From positions 1-64,000 of the forward strand of contig NZ_JASBQE010000050.1 in assembly GCF_029960785.1 (NCBI RefSeq): a stretch of DNA of 64,000 bases. The letters are read 5' to 3'. The notes under the pieces were generated by a model that worked only from the letters and a program-made list of their open reading frames with translations, was not told the DNA's origin and did not search any database. Shown piece by piece: positions 47,990 through 53,679 of the stretch. The stretch's first letter is position 1. Each line of letters starts with the position of its first letter. Position numbers and translations under genes: made by a program. Origin of the DNA: Polyangium sp. 15x6 (GTDB lineage Bacteria > Myxococcota_A > Polyangia > Polyangiales > Polyangiaceae).

Positions 47990-50900
47990 GTGGATCTGAG
48001 CGACCAGTCCCAGACCCTGGTGATCATCGGCAACGGGATGGTCGGCTGGAAGCTCTGCCAGCGAATGGTGGAGTACGGCGCGAACGACGAGATCCGCATC
48101 CTCGTGTTCGGCGAGGAAGCGGTGCCGGCCTACGACCGCGTGCACCTCACGGAGTACTTCGCCGGGCGCCCGCTCTCGACGTTCTCGCTCTCGCCCGAGA
48201 GCTGGTACCAGCAAAACGGGATCGAGCTCTACCTCGGCGATCCGATCGTCGAGGTCGATCGCGAGCAGAGCGTGGTGCGCTCACGCTCGGGCCTGCGCGT
48301 CGAGTACAACCGCCTCGTCTTCGCCACCGGGTCGCGCCCGTTCGTCCCGCCGATCGAGGGCGCCGATCTGCCAGGCGTCTTCGTCTACCGCACGCTCGAC
48401 GACGTCGCCGACATCGAGGAGTACGCGTGCGATTTCGCGCCGACGACGAGCGCCGCCGTGATCGGCGGAGGCCTGCTCGGGCTGGAAGCGGCGAAGGCGG
48501 TCTACGATCTCGAGCTCGACGTGCACGTCGTCGAGGTCTCGCCCTACCTCATGCCGCGGCAGCTCGACGCCGACGGCGGCGCGGTCCTGCGCGACAAGGT
48601 CGAGCGGATGGGCGTGAAGGTCCGGTGCGGGAAGAAGCTGCTCCGGATCGAGCAGGTCTCGCTCGATCCACCCGGCGGCGCGTACGGCGACGACGGCGTG
48701 TCCCGTCCCCTTGCCCCGCGCTCCCCGGACGAGCCCGAGGCCGAGGGCGAGGACGTCGCCCCTGCGATGGCGCTGCGCCTGCACTTCGACGACGGCGAGA
48801 CGCTCATCGTCGGCATGGTGATCTTCGCGGCCGGCGTGCGCCCGCGGGGCGAGCTCGCGAAAGCGGCGGGCCTGCAGATGGCCGGCGACGGCGGGATCGT
48901 GGTCGATGACCGGCTGCAGGCGATCGATCGGAAGACGCGCATGCCCGATGAGCAGATCTTCGCCGTCGGCGAGTGCGCGTCGCACCAGGGCACGACGTAC
49001 GGGCTCGTCTTGCCGGGCTACCAGATGGTCGACGTGGCCGCGGCGAACCTGCTCGGCGCCGAGCGCAAGTTCGAGGGCGCCGACACCTCGGCGAAGCTCA
49101 AGCTGATGGGCGAGACCGTCGCGGCGCTCGGCGAGCACGATGGCGATCAGCGCCTCGGCGGCAACGCGCTCGTGTTCAGCGGCGGCGGCGTCTACCGCAA
49201 GCTCGTGATCCGCGACGGGCGGCTCATCGGCGCGGTGACCGTGGGCGAGTGGGAGAACCTCGACCGCATCCGGGAGCTGCTCAAGGCGCCGCTGCCGCTC
49301 TCGTTCTGGGACATGCGCAGGTTCCGCGGCACGGGCAACCTGTGGCCGAAGTCCGAGTCCTCGCCCGTCACGGAGTGGCCGGCCGAGGCGATCGTCTGCG
49401 GCTGCGTGCGGGTGACGCGCGGCGCGCTCGCGCTGGCGATCGAGGGCGGGTGTGCGTCGGTCGAGGCGCTCGGGACGAAGACGGGCGCGGGCACGCTCTG
49501 CGGTTCGTGCAAGCCGCTGCTCGCGGAGCTGCTCGGCCAGGACGGACCCGTGAGCGTCTTCGAGCCGATGCCCACGTCGTGGCGTGAGGGGCCGCGGAGC
49601 CGTCGCGGCGACGGCGGGCCCCGGTCGCGGCGCGGGGAGGGGCCGCGGAGCCGTCGCGGCGAGCTCTCGCCCTCGTCGCGGCTCGAGTCGTCGAGACGCA
49701 CGAGCGTCATCCCGCCTTCGTCGCTCGCCACCGTGCCGTCGTCGACGGGCAGCGACGCGCCGCGCTCGCGCCGCGATGGCATCCCGTCGTCGCTCGAGGC
49801 CCTCGCGGGGCTCGAGCTCGCACAGCCCTCGGTCCGCGACATCGCGCCGGCCTCGCGCCGCTTCTCGATCACCATCACGGATCGGCCGCCGGAGCTCGCG
49901 AGCGCGCAGGGCCTCGGCCTCTGGAGCGTGACGCCCCTCGCGCCCGTGGTGGTCGAGGACGACGAGGACATCGAGCCGGCGCCGATGTCCGTGCGGGGCC
50001 GCATGATCCACGCGCCGGCCGAGGACGAAGGCGACGCGGGCCCCGTGTCGATGCGCAGCGCGACGCTCTCCTCCTCGCGCGTCGCCGTGGACCTGCCGCC
50101 GCCGAGCACGCTCCGTTCGTCGATCCCGCCGTCTTCGCCGGCCGAGGCGATCCAAGCCGCGAACTTCGTCGCCGCTTCCTTCGAGGCGCTCGAAGCGCCG
50201 GAGGAAGCGCCCGTCGCGCGTCGTGGCGTCGCGCTCGCGTCGGAGACGCCGCCGGCCGGCACCGAGATCGCGCCGCGCTCGAAACCGACACTCGGGGAGA
50301 CCACGCTCCGCGAGGCCGTGAAGACGCCGCCGACGGGCACCGAGCTCGCGCCGCGCTCGCCGCGCCTCGCGCTCGATCCGGTTCGCCGGGACGACGCCGC
50401 GCCGACGCCGCCCACGGGCATTGCGGTCGTGCCGCGATCACCGCGTTCCTTGGAGGCCCAAGCGCCTCCTTCGGTCCGCGCGTCCTCGATCACGCCGCCC
50501 TCGGGCATCGCGATCACGCCGCGCACCCCGCGCCGCACCTCGACCCCGCCGGCGGGCATCGCGCTCATCGGGCTCGGCGGCGAGGCGCTCCCGCCTTCGC
50601 TCCCCGAGACGCCCGCGACCGGCCTCGTCCTCGGCCTCGCCGCGCGCGCCACCGCCGAGGGCCCGATCCGCAGATCGACCCCGCCGGCCGGCTCGGTGCG
50701 CGTCATGTCCATCTTGCCGCCGCCTTCTTCCCACGCGGTCCCGCCCTCGTCCGCGCCGCCGACCTCGTCGCGCCCGATCTCCAGCGGCGTCATCCTCCCG
50801 CCCTCGGACGTGGCCATCATCTCGGTCGACGAGCCCTTGCCGAGGCTCGCCCCCTTGCCCATCATCGAGCCGCCCCTCTTCGCGGCCTCCTCGGACGTGC

Positions 50901-51748
50901 CGCCCTCCTCGGCGCGCCGGCTCTCCGCGATGGAGGGCCTCATCGACATCGACGAGCGCAAGGAGAGCTCCTCGACCCGCTACTCGCGCATCTCGCTCCT
51001 CGCGAGCGTCGACGAGGGCGAGATCGCCGGGGTCCTCGCGGTCTCGCGTGACGGGCTCACGCCGAGCGTCACGCCGGGCCTCGCCGCCGTGGATCGGGCG
51101 CCGATGTCCCGGCGGAGCTGGGTGCCTCCGAAGCGCCTCAGCATACCGCCGGGCGCGCTCCAGACCCCCTCGGTGCCGCCGGTGCGGCCCTCGATCGCGC
51201 CTTCGATCCAGGCTCCGCCGGAGCGCGGTCGCAAGATTCTCCTCGTTGCGTCGGTCGTCGCTTTATCCTGGGTCCTCGTGCTGGTCCTCGCCCCCTCGCT
51301 CACCCCCTCGCGCTCCGTCCGGACGGGCGTCTTCCTGGACGTGCTCCTGCGTCCGGGGATCGCGAAGCAGGTGAGCGGCTACGCCCTCGTCGGGCTCGCG
51401 GTGGCGAGCCTCGGCGTCTCGCTGCGCAAGCGCTGGAAGCGGTTCCGGTCCGCGGACGTGCCCGTCTGGCGCACGGTCCACGCGGTCCTCGGCGCGGCGA
51501 CCATGCTCTTGTTTTTCCTGCACACGGGCCTCTCCGCGGGGACCCGGATCAACCTCGTCCTGGCGATCGACTTTCTCGCCGTGGTGCTCCTCGGGGCGCT
51601 CGCGGGGGGCGTGTTCGCGGTGAGCTCCCGGTGGAGCCCCCTCGTCGCGCGGGACCGTCGTTTGCGGGCTTCCTACGTTCACCTCCTCCTGACCTGGCCG
51701 TTGCCGATCCTGATCGCCCTCCATGTGCTTGCCGTGTACTACTACTGA
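47990..51748 (+). CDS. NirB-like FAD/[2Fe-2S] protein fused through a repeat linker to a heme b-type membrane domain
   Basis: 1252 aa from GTG 47990. Residues 1-430 are a pyridine-nucleotide disulfide-type flavin domain close to the NirB N-terminus (VIIGNGMVGWKLCQRM; FATGSRPFVPPIEG; AVIGGGLLGLEAAKAV; FAVGECASHQG). Residues about 465-515 form a BFD-type [2Fe-2S] module with VCGCVRV and LCGSCKP. Sirohaem domains are absent. Residues about 525-1078 are Ser/Pro/Arg-rich low-complexity, with several TPP(A/T/S)G-x4-PR(S/T)PR-like repeats and PRSRRG repeats. The last 170 residues have five helices with His in helix 3 (RTVHAVLG, FFLHTG) and helix 5 (SYVHLLL, ALHVLAV), fit to bind two b hemes. It should pass electrons from NAD(P)H into the membrane. 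The gene ends 15 nt before the multiheme cytochrome gene. Confidence 0.85.
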   Translation: MDLSDQSQTLVIIGNGMVGWKLCQRMVEYGANDEIRILVFGEEAVPAYDRVHLTEYFAGRPLSTFSLSPESWYQQNGIELYLGDPIVEVDREQSVVRSRSGLRVEYNRLVFATGSRPFVPPIEGADLPGVFVYRTLDDVADIEEYACDFAPTTSAAVIGGGLLGLEAAKAVYDLELDVHVVEVSPYLMPRQLDADGGAVLRDKVERMGVKVRCGKKLLRIEQVSLDPPGGAYGDDGVSRPLAPRSPDEPEAEGEDVAPAMALRLHFDDGETLIVGMVIFAAGVRPRGELAKAAGLQMAGDGGIVVDDRLQAIDRKTRMPDEQIFAVGECASHQGTTYGLVLPGYQMVDVAAANLLGAERKFEGADTSAKLKLMGETVAALGEHDGDQRLGGNALVFSGGGVYRKLVIRDGRLIGAVTVGEWENLDRIRELLKAPLPLSFWDMRRFRGTGNLWPKSESSPVTEWPAEAIVCGCVRVTRGALALAIEGGCASVEALGTKTGAGTLCGSCKPLLAELLGQDGPVSVFEPMPTSWREGPRSRRGDGGPRSRRGEGPRSRRGELSPSSRLESSRRTSVIPPSSLATVPSSTGSDAPRSRRDGIPSSLEALAGLELAQPSVRDIAPASRRFSITITDRPPELASAQGLGLWSVTPLAPVVVEDDEDIEPAPMSVRGRMIHAPAEDEGDAGPVSMRSATLSSSRVAVDLPPPSTLRSSIPPSSPAEAIQAANFVAASFEALEAPEEAPVARRGVALASETPPAGTEIAPRSKPTLGETTLREAVKTPPTGTELAPRSPRLALDPVRRDDAAPTPPTGIAVVPRSPRSLEAQAPPSVRASSITPPSGIAITPRTPRRTSTPPAGIALIGLGGEALPPSLPETPATGLVLGLAARATAEGPIRRSTPPAGSVRVMSILPPPSSHAVPPSSAPPTSSRPISSGVILPPSDVAIISVDEPLPRLAPLPIIEPPLFAASSDVPPSSARRLSAMEGLIDIDERKESSSTRYSRISLLASVDEGEIAGVLAVSRDGLTPSVTPGLAAVDRAPMSRRSWVPPKRLSIPPGALQTPSVPPVRPSIAPSIQAPPERGRKILLVASVVALSWVLVLVLAPSLTPSRSVRTGVFLDVLLRPGIAKQVSGYALVGLAVASLGVSLRKRWKRFRSADVPVWRTVHAVLGAATMLLFFLHTGLSAGTRINLVLAIDFLAVVLLGALAGGVFAVSSRWSPLVARDRRLRASYVHLLLTWPLPILIALHVLAVYYY

Positions 51749-51763
51749 GAGGCGGGCCTGCTG

Positions 51764-53068
51764 ATGAGCACGCGTACCTCGATCTTGGCCTGGCTCCTGC
51801 TCACGGGGCTCGTGGGCGGCTTCGGGGCCTTCCGGTTCACCTCAAAGGACCAGACGCTCTATTTGCCCGATCAGACGTCCCACGGGCATCATCAAATCGA
51901 AATGGCGTGTGCGTCCTGCCATACCCCGTTCGGCGGCGTGAAGGACGACGCTTGCACGAATTGCCACGGCGAACAGCGCACCGCGGCCGACTCGCATCCG
52001 GCCTCGAAGTTCAACGACCCGCGCAACGCCGGCAACCTCGAAAAGATCGACGCGCGCCGCTGCGTCACGTGCCACGTCGAGCACTGGCCCGAGGGGACGC
52101 ACCGCGAGGGCTACACGCTCCCCGTGGATTTCTGCGTCACGTGCCACGAAGACGTCGGCACCGAGCGGCCGAGCCACGCGGGGATGTCGTTTACCACGTG
52201 CAGCGACGCGGGCTGCCACAACTACCACGACAACCGCGTGCTCTGGGAAGACTACCTGAAGAAGCACCTCGGCGAGCCCTTCTTGCTCGCGTCGGCGAAG
52301 GTCTTGCCGCGCGGGGTCGCGACGGTCGCGAAGGGGCCGAAGTCGCTCGCCGGCAAGGATCAGGACGCGCCGCGCACGGTGGCGTTCTCGGCGGCGCTCG
52401 TCTCGGAGTGGGAGGAGTCGGCGCACGCGCGCGCGGGCATCAACTGCTCCGGTTGTCACGGCGGAACGCAGGGCCTCGCCTGGGTGAACAAACCCCCGCT
52501 GACGATCTGCGCGGGCTGCCATGCCGAACAAAACAAGGGGTTTGGCCTGGGGAAGCACGGAATGCGCGTCGCCGCGGGCCTCGGCCCGATGAGCCCGGCC
52601 CTCGCGCGTTTGCCCATGCGGGCCGAGGCCAAGGAGCTCGAGGTCGGCTGTGAGAGCTGCCACGGCGGGCACTCCGTGAATGCCCGGAAAGCGGCCGTGG
52701 ACTCGTGCCTCGGATGCCACGACGACGAACACAGCCGGTCCTACCAGCGGTCGCCGCACTTCAAGTTGTGGGAGGCCGAGATAAACCGCACGGCTCCGCC
52801 CGGGACGGGTGTATCGTGTGCAACGTGCCACATGCCCCGCGAGAAGTCGTCGAGTGGAGCTGTCGTGGTGCAGCACAACCAGAACGACAACTTGAGGCCG
52901 AGCGAGAAGATGGTCCGCAACGTCTGCGCGAGCTGCCACGGCGTGGGCTTCTCGCTCGACGCGGTCGCGGACCCGGAGCTCGTCCGGCACAACTTCGCCG
53001 GTCGCCCGAAGAAACACGTGGCGAGCGTGGACATGGTCGAGAAGCGCGCAGCGCCGGGGAAGCGCTGA
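51764..53068 (+). CDS. Multiheme c-type cytochrome (10 CxxCH plus one CX4CH)
   Basis: 434 aa. An N-terminal hydrophobic segment (ILAWLLLTGLVGGFGAF) exports or anchors it. Ten CxxCH heme sites are visible (CASCH, CTNCH, CVTCH twice, CSGCH, CAGCH, CESCH, CLGCH, CATCH, CASCH). One CSDAGCH, a CX4CH site, lies between the fourth and fifth. Extra His for axial ligation are plentiful near the N-terminus (HGHHQIEMACASCH). This arrangement fits a periplasmic electron conduit of the cytochrome c3/NrfH-octaheme type rather than a terminal reductase. It follows the membrane flavoprotein by 15 nt, so the two are almost certainly co-transcribed. Confidence 0.88.
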   Translation: MSTRTSILAWLLLTGLVGGFGAFRFTSKDQTLYLPDQTSHGHHQIEMACASCHTPFGGVKDDACTNCHGEQRTAADSHPASKFNDPRNAGNLEKIDARRCVTCHVEHWPEGTHREGYTLPVDFCVTCHEDVGTERPSHAGMSFTTCSDAGCHNYHDNRVLWEDYLKKHLGEPFLLASAKVLPRGVATVAKGPKSLAGKDQDAPRTVAFSAALVSEWEESAHARAGINCSGCHGGTQGLAWVNKPPLTICAGCHAEQNKGFGLGKHGMRVAAGLGPMSPALARLPMRAEAKELEVGCESCHGGHSVNARKAAVDSCLGCHDDEHSRSYQRSPHFKLWEAEINRTAPPGTGVSCATCHMPREKSSSGAVVVQHNQNDNLRPSEKMVRNVCASCHGVGFSLDAVADPELVRHNFAGRPKKHVASVDMVEKRAAPGKR

Positions 53069-53085
53069 GCAAGGAGAAGGACGAC

Positions 53086-53679
53086 GTGAAGATGGGACAC
53101 TCGAAGGCGGGCGCGATGTTGTGCGGCGCCGTGGCCCTCGCCGGCGTGACGGCGTTCGGCTGCGGTAGCCAGGGTGGTGGCGGCGGCGGGGGCATCCAGC
53201 CGCAGCAGATGGCGGACGCGCTCTACGCCGTCATCGCGGCCGATCGCGCGACCTACGCGGGCCAGGTCGTCGATCGCCTCGTGAAGGAGAACGCGATCAA
53301 GGCGACCGAGCGGTTCAAGGAAGAGAAGACGCTCCCGCTGCCGGCGCAGATGCTGCGCATGGGAGCCGAGCACGCGCAGAAGACGAACTCGAACTTCTCC
53401 TACGCGCTCCTCTCGATGTGGCCGATCAACCAGCAGAACAAGGCCAAGACGGACGCCGAGAAGGCGGGCCTCAAGTTCGTCGCGGAGAACCCGGGCAAGA
53501 ACTACTACACGGAGGAGAAAATCGCGGACAAGACCTATTTCACCGCGGTTTATCCGGACAAGGCCGTCGCCGCCGCGTGCGCGAATTGCCACAACGAGCA
53601 CGCCGACAGCCCGCGCAAGGACTTCAAGGAAGGCGATCTCATGGGTGGCCTCGTGATCCGCATTCCCGTGAACAAGTAA
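53086..53679 (+). CDS. Tll0287/DUF3365-like heme lipoprotein
   Basis: 197 aa from GTG 53086 (AAGG 5 nt upstream); ATG 53092 is the alternative. The lipobox is AFGC (Cys near 24). The mature part has helices and an alpha/beta sensor-like fold typical of the Tll0287/DUF3365 family (NFSYALLSMWPINQQNK; KTYFTAVYPDKAV) and one c-type heme site CANCHNEHADS. The family is known from cyanobacterial and sensory heme proteins. It lies 17 nt after the multiheme gene, so it belongs to the same operon and probably takes or senses electrons from the cytochrome. Confidence 0.8.
   Translation: MKMGHSKAGAMLCGAVALAGVTAFGCGSQGGGGGGGIQPQQMADALYAVIAADRATYAGQVVDRLVKENAIKATERFKEEKTLPLPAQMLRMGAEHAQKTNSNFSYALLSMWPINQQNKAKTDAEKAGLKFVAENPGKNYYTEEKIADKTYFTAVYPDKAVAAACANCHNEHADSPRKDFKEGDLMGGLVIRIPVNK

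Follow-up and report, generated by a model that had tools for sequence, protein, structure and literature searches.

A cassette of three genes, g1, g2 and g3, in a 64,000-nucleotide stretch of the Polyangium sp. 15x6 genome (RefSeq assembly GCF_029960785.1, contig NZ_JASBQE010000050.1, positions 1 to 64,000; hereafter the window) very probably encodes a transmembrane conduit that would carry electrons from cytosolic NAD(P)H to the periplasm. The g1 protein joins a NirB-type flavin adenine dinucleotide (FAD)/NAD(P)H reductase and a BFD-like [2Fe-2S] domain to a cytochrome-b-like membrane domain, g2 is an eleven-heme c-type cytochrome, and g3 is a single-heme protein of the sCache_heme (Tll0287-like) group. 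We regard it as an even question whether the cassette works in connection with nitrate assimilation and with the nitric oxide (NO) that this brings. As a whole, a conduit with such a nitrate/NO role is the explanation we lean towards.

The three open reading frames (ORFs) are co-directional with intergenic gaps of 15 and 17 nt, exactly the spacing reported in an earlier note on this DNA. The same note had described NirB-like FAD/NAD motifs and BFD cysteine pairs without sirohaem domains, five C-terminal helices with four histidines, eleven c-type heme sites and a DUF3365-like CxxCH lipoprotein, all of which recurred in our Pfam searches, alignments and models, as detailed below for each protein. 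The host genome is 13.4 Mb in size, and the g2 proteins of the closest named relatives (Polyangium species) are 94-96% identical to that of the window.

Conservation of the cassette

Our g2 scan returned 63 loci, of which one (L068, a 25-residue match) was set aside to leave 62 (L006-L067) that span at least eight phyla. Context tallies leave out L001-L005 and L068 (near-duplicates, short stretches and the 25-residue match). All three protein alignments leave out L059, L060, L065 and L067 (split frames or contig ends), and that of g1 also L014; conservation counts cover 58 g1 and 59 g2 sequences, window included, and alignments A1-A4 used 50, 49, 47 and 44 sequences.

Gene order, which we observed directly, is nearly fixed. 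The FAD-BFD-b fusion lies directly upstream of g2 in 61 of the 62 loci (in L014 the contig edge falls inside the b-domain) and g3 directly downstream in 58, with g3 upstream of g1 in three loci (L021, L024, L030) and beyond the contig end in L065. Because the same order is found in nearly all of the 62 loci from other genomes, chance is excluded, and the idea of a Polyangium-specific curiosity was rejected on the same recurrence across phyla. In the window's class, g2 was present in 5 of 192 genomes, including its own and both further genomes listed for its genus. Among 244 genomes of the order of Alcanivorax, 27 carry g2; the b-domain profile matched 26 of these, each time beside g2, and 0 of the other 217. 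The one g2 genome lacking a b-domain match (G252) has g2 beginning at the contig start. Since b-domain matches are confined to g2 genomes and lie beside g2, we rejected chance neighbourhood for g1 and g2. One genome of the Thermoanaerobaculia (G223) has two b-domains, the second of them in another complete g1-g2-g3 cassette on a 6-kb contig (L089, C270).

Our searches of open-access full-text literature, a coverage outside which most subscription papers fall, gave no account of either the cassette or the fusion. The earlier note, which knew of no account of the fusion, had held that an already characterised one would speak against its reading. Candidate papers with eleven-heme terms (PMC5371394, PMC10734462, PMC13264449, PMC13386937, PMC13293256) and further candidates (PMC3770913, PMC5566968, PMC9230427) describe other systems, judging by their accessible parts.

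A NirB-type front end joined to a membrane domain

The N-terminal part of g1 matched Pyr_redox_2 (3.2e-44), Pyr_redox, Rubredoxin_C and Fer2_BFD (4.3e-10). Cofactor motifs are strictly conserved: glycines 14, 16, 159, 161 and 164 of the dinucleotide motifs and the four BFD cysteines (C470, C472, C504, C507) are unchanged in 58 of 58 aligned g1 sequences. The sirohaem/4Fe-4S domains NIR_SIR and NIR_SIR_ferr were absent from g1 by Pfam at E up to 1, whereas the same test on a NirB from L072 scored both, and we thus rejected the reading of g1 as an ordinary NirB. Against TIGR02374, the NirB large-subunit model, g1 reached 420 bits, below the cut-off of 578. In a front-end tree rooted by midpoint, six NirB rows group with 20 g1 rows (Planctomycetota, Verrucomicrobiota, Poribacteria, Acidobacteriota, Gemmatimonadota and Myxococcota; support 100/98), and 31 g1 rows from Pseudomonadota and Nitrospirota stand separate from this NirB-containing set. 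One reading is that front ends may have been exchanged between NirB and g1, in a direction that the midpoint root leaves undecided.

The BFD and membrane domains of the window's g1 are joined by a linker of about 565 amino acids (aa), which the earlier note did not mention. The protein is 1252-1275 aa long in the window and L006-L008 versus 639-687 aa in 54 others, and among aligned g1 sequences the long linker is found only in Polyangium. Imperfect PPxGxxxxPRSPR-type repeats, spotted by eye, run through this flavin-membrane tether.

Four histidines of the membrane domain are invariant in all 58 aligned g1 sequences. Helix 3 carries one pair (H1164, H1178) and helix 5 the other (H1231, H1245), with a spacing of 14 residues in both. 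An AlphaFold2 model of the g1 of L019 (predicted local distance difference test, pLDDT, 87.1) has five membrane-length helical stretches in its C-terminal part. Loops 2-3 and 4-5, with limits set by eye, show an excess of Lys/Arg (6 versus 1 and 5 versus 1 acidic residues), which would place the flavin end in the cytosol and the C-terminus in the periplasm. In Pfam searches at E up to 1, DUF4405 matched 24 of 49 b-domain members, Ni_hydr_CYTB 23 and Ferric_reduct three (best member E-values 1.2e-4, 1.6e-6 and 1.4e-3, respectively), and the window's own b-domain scored under every curated cut-off. A sequence search of the PDB gave no credible relative of the b-domain, and Foldseek and VIA searches with g1 gave flavoprotein reductases alone among the matches listed, a result that barely probes the b-domain fold. 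With weak matches and no Pfam family of its own, heme binding by the b-domain is something we infer from the histidines and not from a family assignment. The earlier note had held that a membrane part unable to bind heme would speak against its reading; the two histidine pairs kept in every aligned sequence point to heme binding.

The Ferric_reduct matches and a topology from NADH to the outside also bear on extracellular electron transfer or ferric reduction, in which the conduit would export electrons to metals or other outside acceptors. Multiheme cytochromes are often so used, and one locus (L017) comes from a biocathode metagenome-assembled genome. However, a porin-cytochrome partner was not evident, Alginate_exp porins being present in just 7 of the 62 loci, and the 40 neighbour clusters listed included no recognisable outer-membrane cytochrome. 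We consider this reading very improbable.

The undecaheme cytochrome g2

The g2 protein matched Cytochrom_c3_2 (6.2e-16), and its AlphaFold2 model from the window has a pLDDT of 78.6. It carries eleven heme sites, ten CxxCH and one CX4CH (C146). All eleven sites, together with exactly eleven further histidines, are invariant in 59 of 59 aligned sequences, numbers that fit an electron wire in which every heme would be bis-His ligated.

Some similarity to catalytic multiheme proteins was found in the second half of g2. HMMER linked hemes 6-7 and 10-11 to NrfA and eight-heme nitrite reductases (whole-sequence E of 3.5e-9 and 2e-8 to 9e-8; single stretches 3e-5 and 8e-6), and residues 191-414 aligned with hydroxylamine oxidoreductase (HAO) in VIA-align over 193 residues (root-mean-square deviation 3.8) at a Z of 6.8, where values below 8 can reflect a common arrangement. 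Together with three invariant non-heme residues (M267, R268 and Q373), these likenesses would suit a g2 that is itself an NADH-driven periplasmic NO or nitrite reductase, its C-terminal six-heme half taken from NrfA, ONR or HAO and one heme being catalytic. Yet a CxxCK site occurs in none of the 59 g2 sequences and the spare invariant histidines are enough to ligate every heme, so that we think catalysis by g2 quite unlikely.

At L059:8085-9454 and L060:1695-2928 g2 is in two pieces in different frames, through a frameshift or an assembly error.

The sCache_heme protein g3

The match of g3 to PF11845 (Tll0287-like) was clear (5.2e-19; 69.5 bits versus a cut-off of 24.1), and a sequence search of the PDB with g3 gave nothing credible. 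Its one CxxCH is invariant in 59 of 59 sequences, and its start is lipobox-like, as in 41 of the 59 relatives. Past residue 45, no cysteine occurs outside the CxxCH in 58 of 59 g3 sequences, the exception (L048) having one near its C-terminal end; g3 therefore lacks the axial cysteine of the Cys/His redox subtype of sCache_heme proteins. According to the accessible part of PMC12889525, to which our statements on this group are limited, a stand-alone sCache_heme protein of Pseudomonas putida has Cys/His ligation and binds NO weakly, and a signalling one of P. azotoformans, without the axial cysteine, holds NO tightly. Being stand-alone yet Cys-less, g3 sits between the two groups of that paper.

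Table 1. Features of the cassette, with positions in the window.
Feature	Position	Strand	Basis
g1: NirB-type FAD/NAD(P)H reductase, BFD [2Fe-2S], linker, five-helix diheme-b-like membrane domain	47990..51748	+	GTG start, 1252 aa; Pfam, alignment
g1 FAD/NAD(P)H reductase part, aa 10-432	48017..49285	+	Pyr_redox_2, Rubredoxin_C
g1 BFD-like [2Fe-2S] domain, aa 468-516	49391..49537	+	C470, C472, C504, C507
g1 low-complexity linker, Pro/Ser/Ala/Arg-rich, aa 521-1085	49550..51244	+	Composition, length comparison
g1 five-helix cytochrome-b-like domain	51245..51745	+	H1164, H1178, H1231, H1245; loop charges
g2: undecaheme c-type cytochrome with N-terminal hydrophobic helix, 434 aa	51764..53068	+	Pfam, heme motifs, alignment
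g2 hemes 1-5, cytochrome-c3-like half including CX4CH site at C146	51887..52228	+	Pfam, motifs
g2 hemes 6-11, aa 191-414	52334..53005	+	Weak resemblance to HAO/ONR/NrfA heme core
g3: monoheme sCache_heme (Tll0287-like) putative lipoprotein, 197 aa	53086..53679	+	GTG start; CxxCH at aa 165-169, without axial Cys

Gene neighbourhood of the cassette

A globin gene (PF00042 or PF01152) was present in 39 of the 62 loci. Where both could be placed (38 loci), it always comes after g3 and on its strand, in 37 cases within 600 bp, and we rejected a chance neighbour on this position and strand, without a random-locus control. In 21 of the 62 loci, nitrate or nitrite genes are found no more than about 8 kb away. 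A small monoheme cytochrome c (PF13442) is present in 23 of the 62 loci, in 22 of them downstream of g3 and co-directional with it.

This small cytochrome c raises the alternative of an NADH:cytochrome c shortcut, in which surplus NADH electrons would pass through g2 and the small cytochrome to a terminal oxidase and bypass the quinones. The purpose would be redox balance, and the nitrate neighbours would reflect the redox load of assimilation and not NO chemistry. Motif counts in g2 that fit all-bis-His hemes suit this alternative, as do the redox roles that PMC12889525, in its accessible part, assigns to stand-alone sCache_heme proteins, roles that equally weigh against NO chemistry at g3. 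However, 39 of the 62 loci showed no such cytochrome, and the globin has no place in such a shortcut. We consider it unlikely.

Genome-wide scans for NasA-like proteins and globins covered 50 cassette genomes (13 of the 62 loci were omitted, mostly near-duplicates or short contigs). In the order of Alcanivorax, NasA homologues were found in 24 of 27 cassette genomes versus 115 of 217 others (p 3e-4), at a cut-off of 1e-98 that was chosen against formate dehydrogenases and still gives a set mixing two NasA types. A fusion of DmsB and DmsC (DmsBC) was found in 15 of 27 versus 26 of 217 (p 9e-7), both p values being uncorrected for kinship; the DmsBC part occurs in 41 of the 244 genomes. In two genomes (G246 and G287), a region of about 34-42 kb contains the cassette and, with other genes interspersed, a nitrate-assimilation set made up of NarK, a molybdoenzyme of 739 aa with a DmsB-DmsC fusion, NirB, NirD, an ANTAR regulator, NrtABC, a porin, a cytochrome c, a truncated globin, a ferredoxin-type reductase and NasA.

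These neighbours and associations speak for the nitrate/NO role. In a further alternative, the FAD-BFD part of g1 would be a donor to NasA, to the globin or to both, in the manner of NasC/Flp, with the membrane and periplasmic hemes feeding it by reverse flow. One locus (L009) has nirB, a 118-aa ORF, nasA, the cassette and the globin co-directional, and the NasA association just given points the same way. In Bradyrhizobium, NasC and the globin Bjgb have been proposed to share Flp, an NAD(P)H flavoprotein (PMC4724949, accessible part). Against this, the invariant FAD/NAD(P)H motifs imply that the front end has a strong electron donor of its own, 4 of 50 genomes lack a NasA-like match, and neither NasA nor a globin lies near the Polyangium loci. 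We judge a cytosolic donor of this kind to be decidedly unlikely. Given these four genomes, NasA is also unlikely to be an obligatory partner, but their assemblies are perhaps incomplete and one of them (G225) does have the DmsBC partner.

Several gene arrangements were observed alongside. At L072:1449-5600 (also in L071) a 739-aa NasA/Fdh-like molybdoenzyme is followed by a DmsB-DmsC fusion (639 aa), adjoining NarK; this is possibly a membrane-anchored, quinol-linked assimilatory nitrate reductase. A gene for a Fer2-FAD-NAD reductase adjoins a truncated globin at L073:1521-2915, with similar pairs at L040, L041, L047 and L070, and the pair resembles a flavohemoglobin split in two. In two Verrucomicrobiota loci, NsrR-like Rrf2 genes lie beside g3 (L021:3747-4187 and L030:383-808; best match NF008240), which would suit an NO link.

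Proposed route and its role

For the conduit, which we continue to favour, we infer the heme pairing, topology and direction of flow from the motifs and gene order above. Electrons would pass from cytosolic NAD(P)H to the FAD of g1 and then to the BFD [2Fe-2S] cluster, from which they would enter two stacked b hemes, one held by H1164/H1231 on the cytosolic side and the other by H1178/H1245 on the periplasmic side. They would then move to the membrane-anchored, eleven-heme g2 and on to the single heme of g3, and in some relatives also from g2 to a small cytochrome c, so that g2 and g3 would form the periplasmic end of the conduit. In most relatives the globin next to g3 may act as a cytosolic NO dioxygenase fed by the g1 reductase or by another. 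Cassette and globin together would be a membrane-spanning elaboration, with a periplasmic arm, of the Bradyrhizobium flavoprotein/globin theme, a system in which nitrate assimilation produces NO (PMC4724949, accessible part).

The domain and gene-order searches that the earlier note had proposed found the domains of the fusion and the same order in relatives, where loss of that order would have spoken against its reading. Its proposal that a single protein would move electrons from NAD(P)H to the periplasm agrees with the motifs and gene order. Its further statement that the cytochromes distribute these electrons we judged unspecific, and in Polyangium there is a paralogue of g1 that stands without g2 or g3 neighbours.

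This paralogue opens a series of points that weigh against the proposed conduit and its nitrate/NO role. A second FAD-BFD-b fusion occurs in the window's genome and in four other Polyangium genomes; at L087:6453-9575 (G000:C133), and also in L088 and L090, the thirteen residues checked are intact, and no g2, g3 or ORF with at least two CxxCH was found in the 15-17 kb around it. The fusion can thus exist without its own g2. Eleven spare histidines would not prove eleven bis-His hemes in g2, as a non-ligating active-site histidine gives an equal count. The neighbour counts over the 62 loci stand without a random-locus control, and 19 of the 62, among them those of Polyangium, Poribacteria and Thermoanaerobaculia, have neither globin nor nitrate genes (six of the 19, namely L051, L054, L055, L056, L063 and L064, have a hemerythrin-domain gene about 2.2-2.6 kb upstream of g2). 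In the Polyangium loci L006-L008 no globin and no nitrate gene adjoins the cassette, globins being present elsewhere in the window's genome, and a NirB query of five Polyangium genomes found front ends only, without the sirohaem half. A NasA-like match at 1e-60, a cut-off that also lets in formate dehydrogenases, was absent from 4 of the 50 cassette genomes, whose assemblies are perhaps incomplete. NirK showed no association in the order of Alcanivorax (1 of 27 cassette genomes versus 16 of 217 others). The NsrR-like matches scored 136 and 121 bits, under the curated cut-off of 182, and FNR/Dnr-like and NsrR-like motifs, searched with consensus patterns, were no commoner upstream of g1 than in the background. 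In the P. putida sCache_heme protein, the C59A variant, from which the axial cysteine is removed, still released NO rapidly with no tight binding (PMC12889525, accessible part).

The C59A result means that the missing cysteine of g3 does not by itself predict NO binding, and it makes periplasmic NO reduction by g3 less probable. We find it rather doubtful that NO is disposed of with NAD(P)H electrons in two compartments, with the Cys-less g3 or a g2 heme reducing NO in the periplasm and the operon globin removing it in the cytosol. If true, such a defence would be attached to nitrate assimilation across at least eight phyla and would not be tied to denitrification by NirK in the order tested.

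Implications

Few quinone-free routes are known by which electrons of cytosolic NAD(P)H reach the periplasm directly, among them NOX/ferric-reductase-like and MsrPQ-type systems. The cassette is a candidate for another, conserved over at least eight phyla with a fixed eleven-heme partner and built on a b-domain for which we found no Pfam family or solved relative. If the link to nitrate and NO is true, the cassette would offer a testable electron donor for single-domain globins to which no reductase has been assigned. It would likewise supply NO defence with a periplasmic arm, in bacteria that are not necessarily denitrifiers.

Comparison with known systems

We class the cassette as a transmembrane flavin/diheme-b electron-transfer system with a multiheme partner, and keep it apart from NirB, NOX and Uet. 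NirB (TIGR02374) and g1 have the FAD/NAD(P)H reductase and BFD front end in common, but where NirB continues into sirohaem/4Fe-4S domains g1 has a membrane b-domain. NADPH oxidases (NOX), ferric reductases and cytochrome b561-type diheme proteins resemble g1 in having a flavin donor and two histidine pairs, 14 residues apart, on two transmembrane helices. They differ in that the flavin module of g1 belongs to the disulfide-reductase family, is N-terminal and comes with a BFD cluster; the window's b-domain gives sub-threshold Pfam matches to these types.

UetJ of Tenderiales and Gallionella has eleven c hemes like g2, but the Uet system also includes a porin, tetra- and triheme cytochromes, a PPIase and NHL proteins (PMC10734462 and PMC5371394, in their accessible parts). 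With NrfA, eight-heme nitrite reductases and HAO, g2 shares short heme-pair similarity and a loose fold match over residues 191-414, whereas it has no CxxCK, eleven hemes and an N-terminal hydrophobic anchor. The Tll0287/DUF3365 sCache_heme proteins are matched by g3 through PF11845 and its retained CxxCH; the stand-alone Tll0287 and P. putida proteins have an axial cysteine that the stand-alone g3 lacks (PMC12889525, accessible part).

The narK-bjgb-flp-nasC genes of Bradyrhizobium encode an NAD(P)H flavoprotein together with a single-domain globin and nitrate-assimilation proteins, and the accessible part of PMC4724949 mentions no b-type membrane domain, multiheme cytochrome or sCache_heme protein. 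Flp is described there as a cytoplasmic-type oxidoreductase, whereas g1 has a membrane domain. The Flp-Bjgb-NasC arrangement is matched in part of the cassette's relatives, through their globin and nitrate genes, but not at L006-L008.

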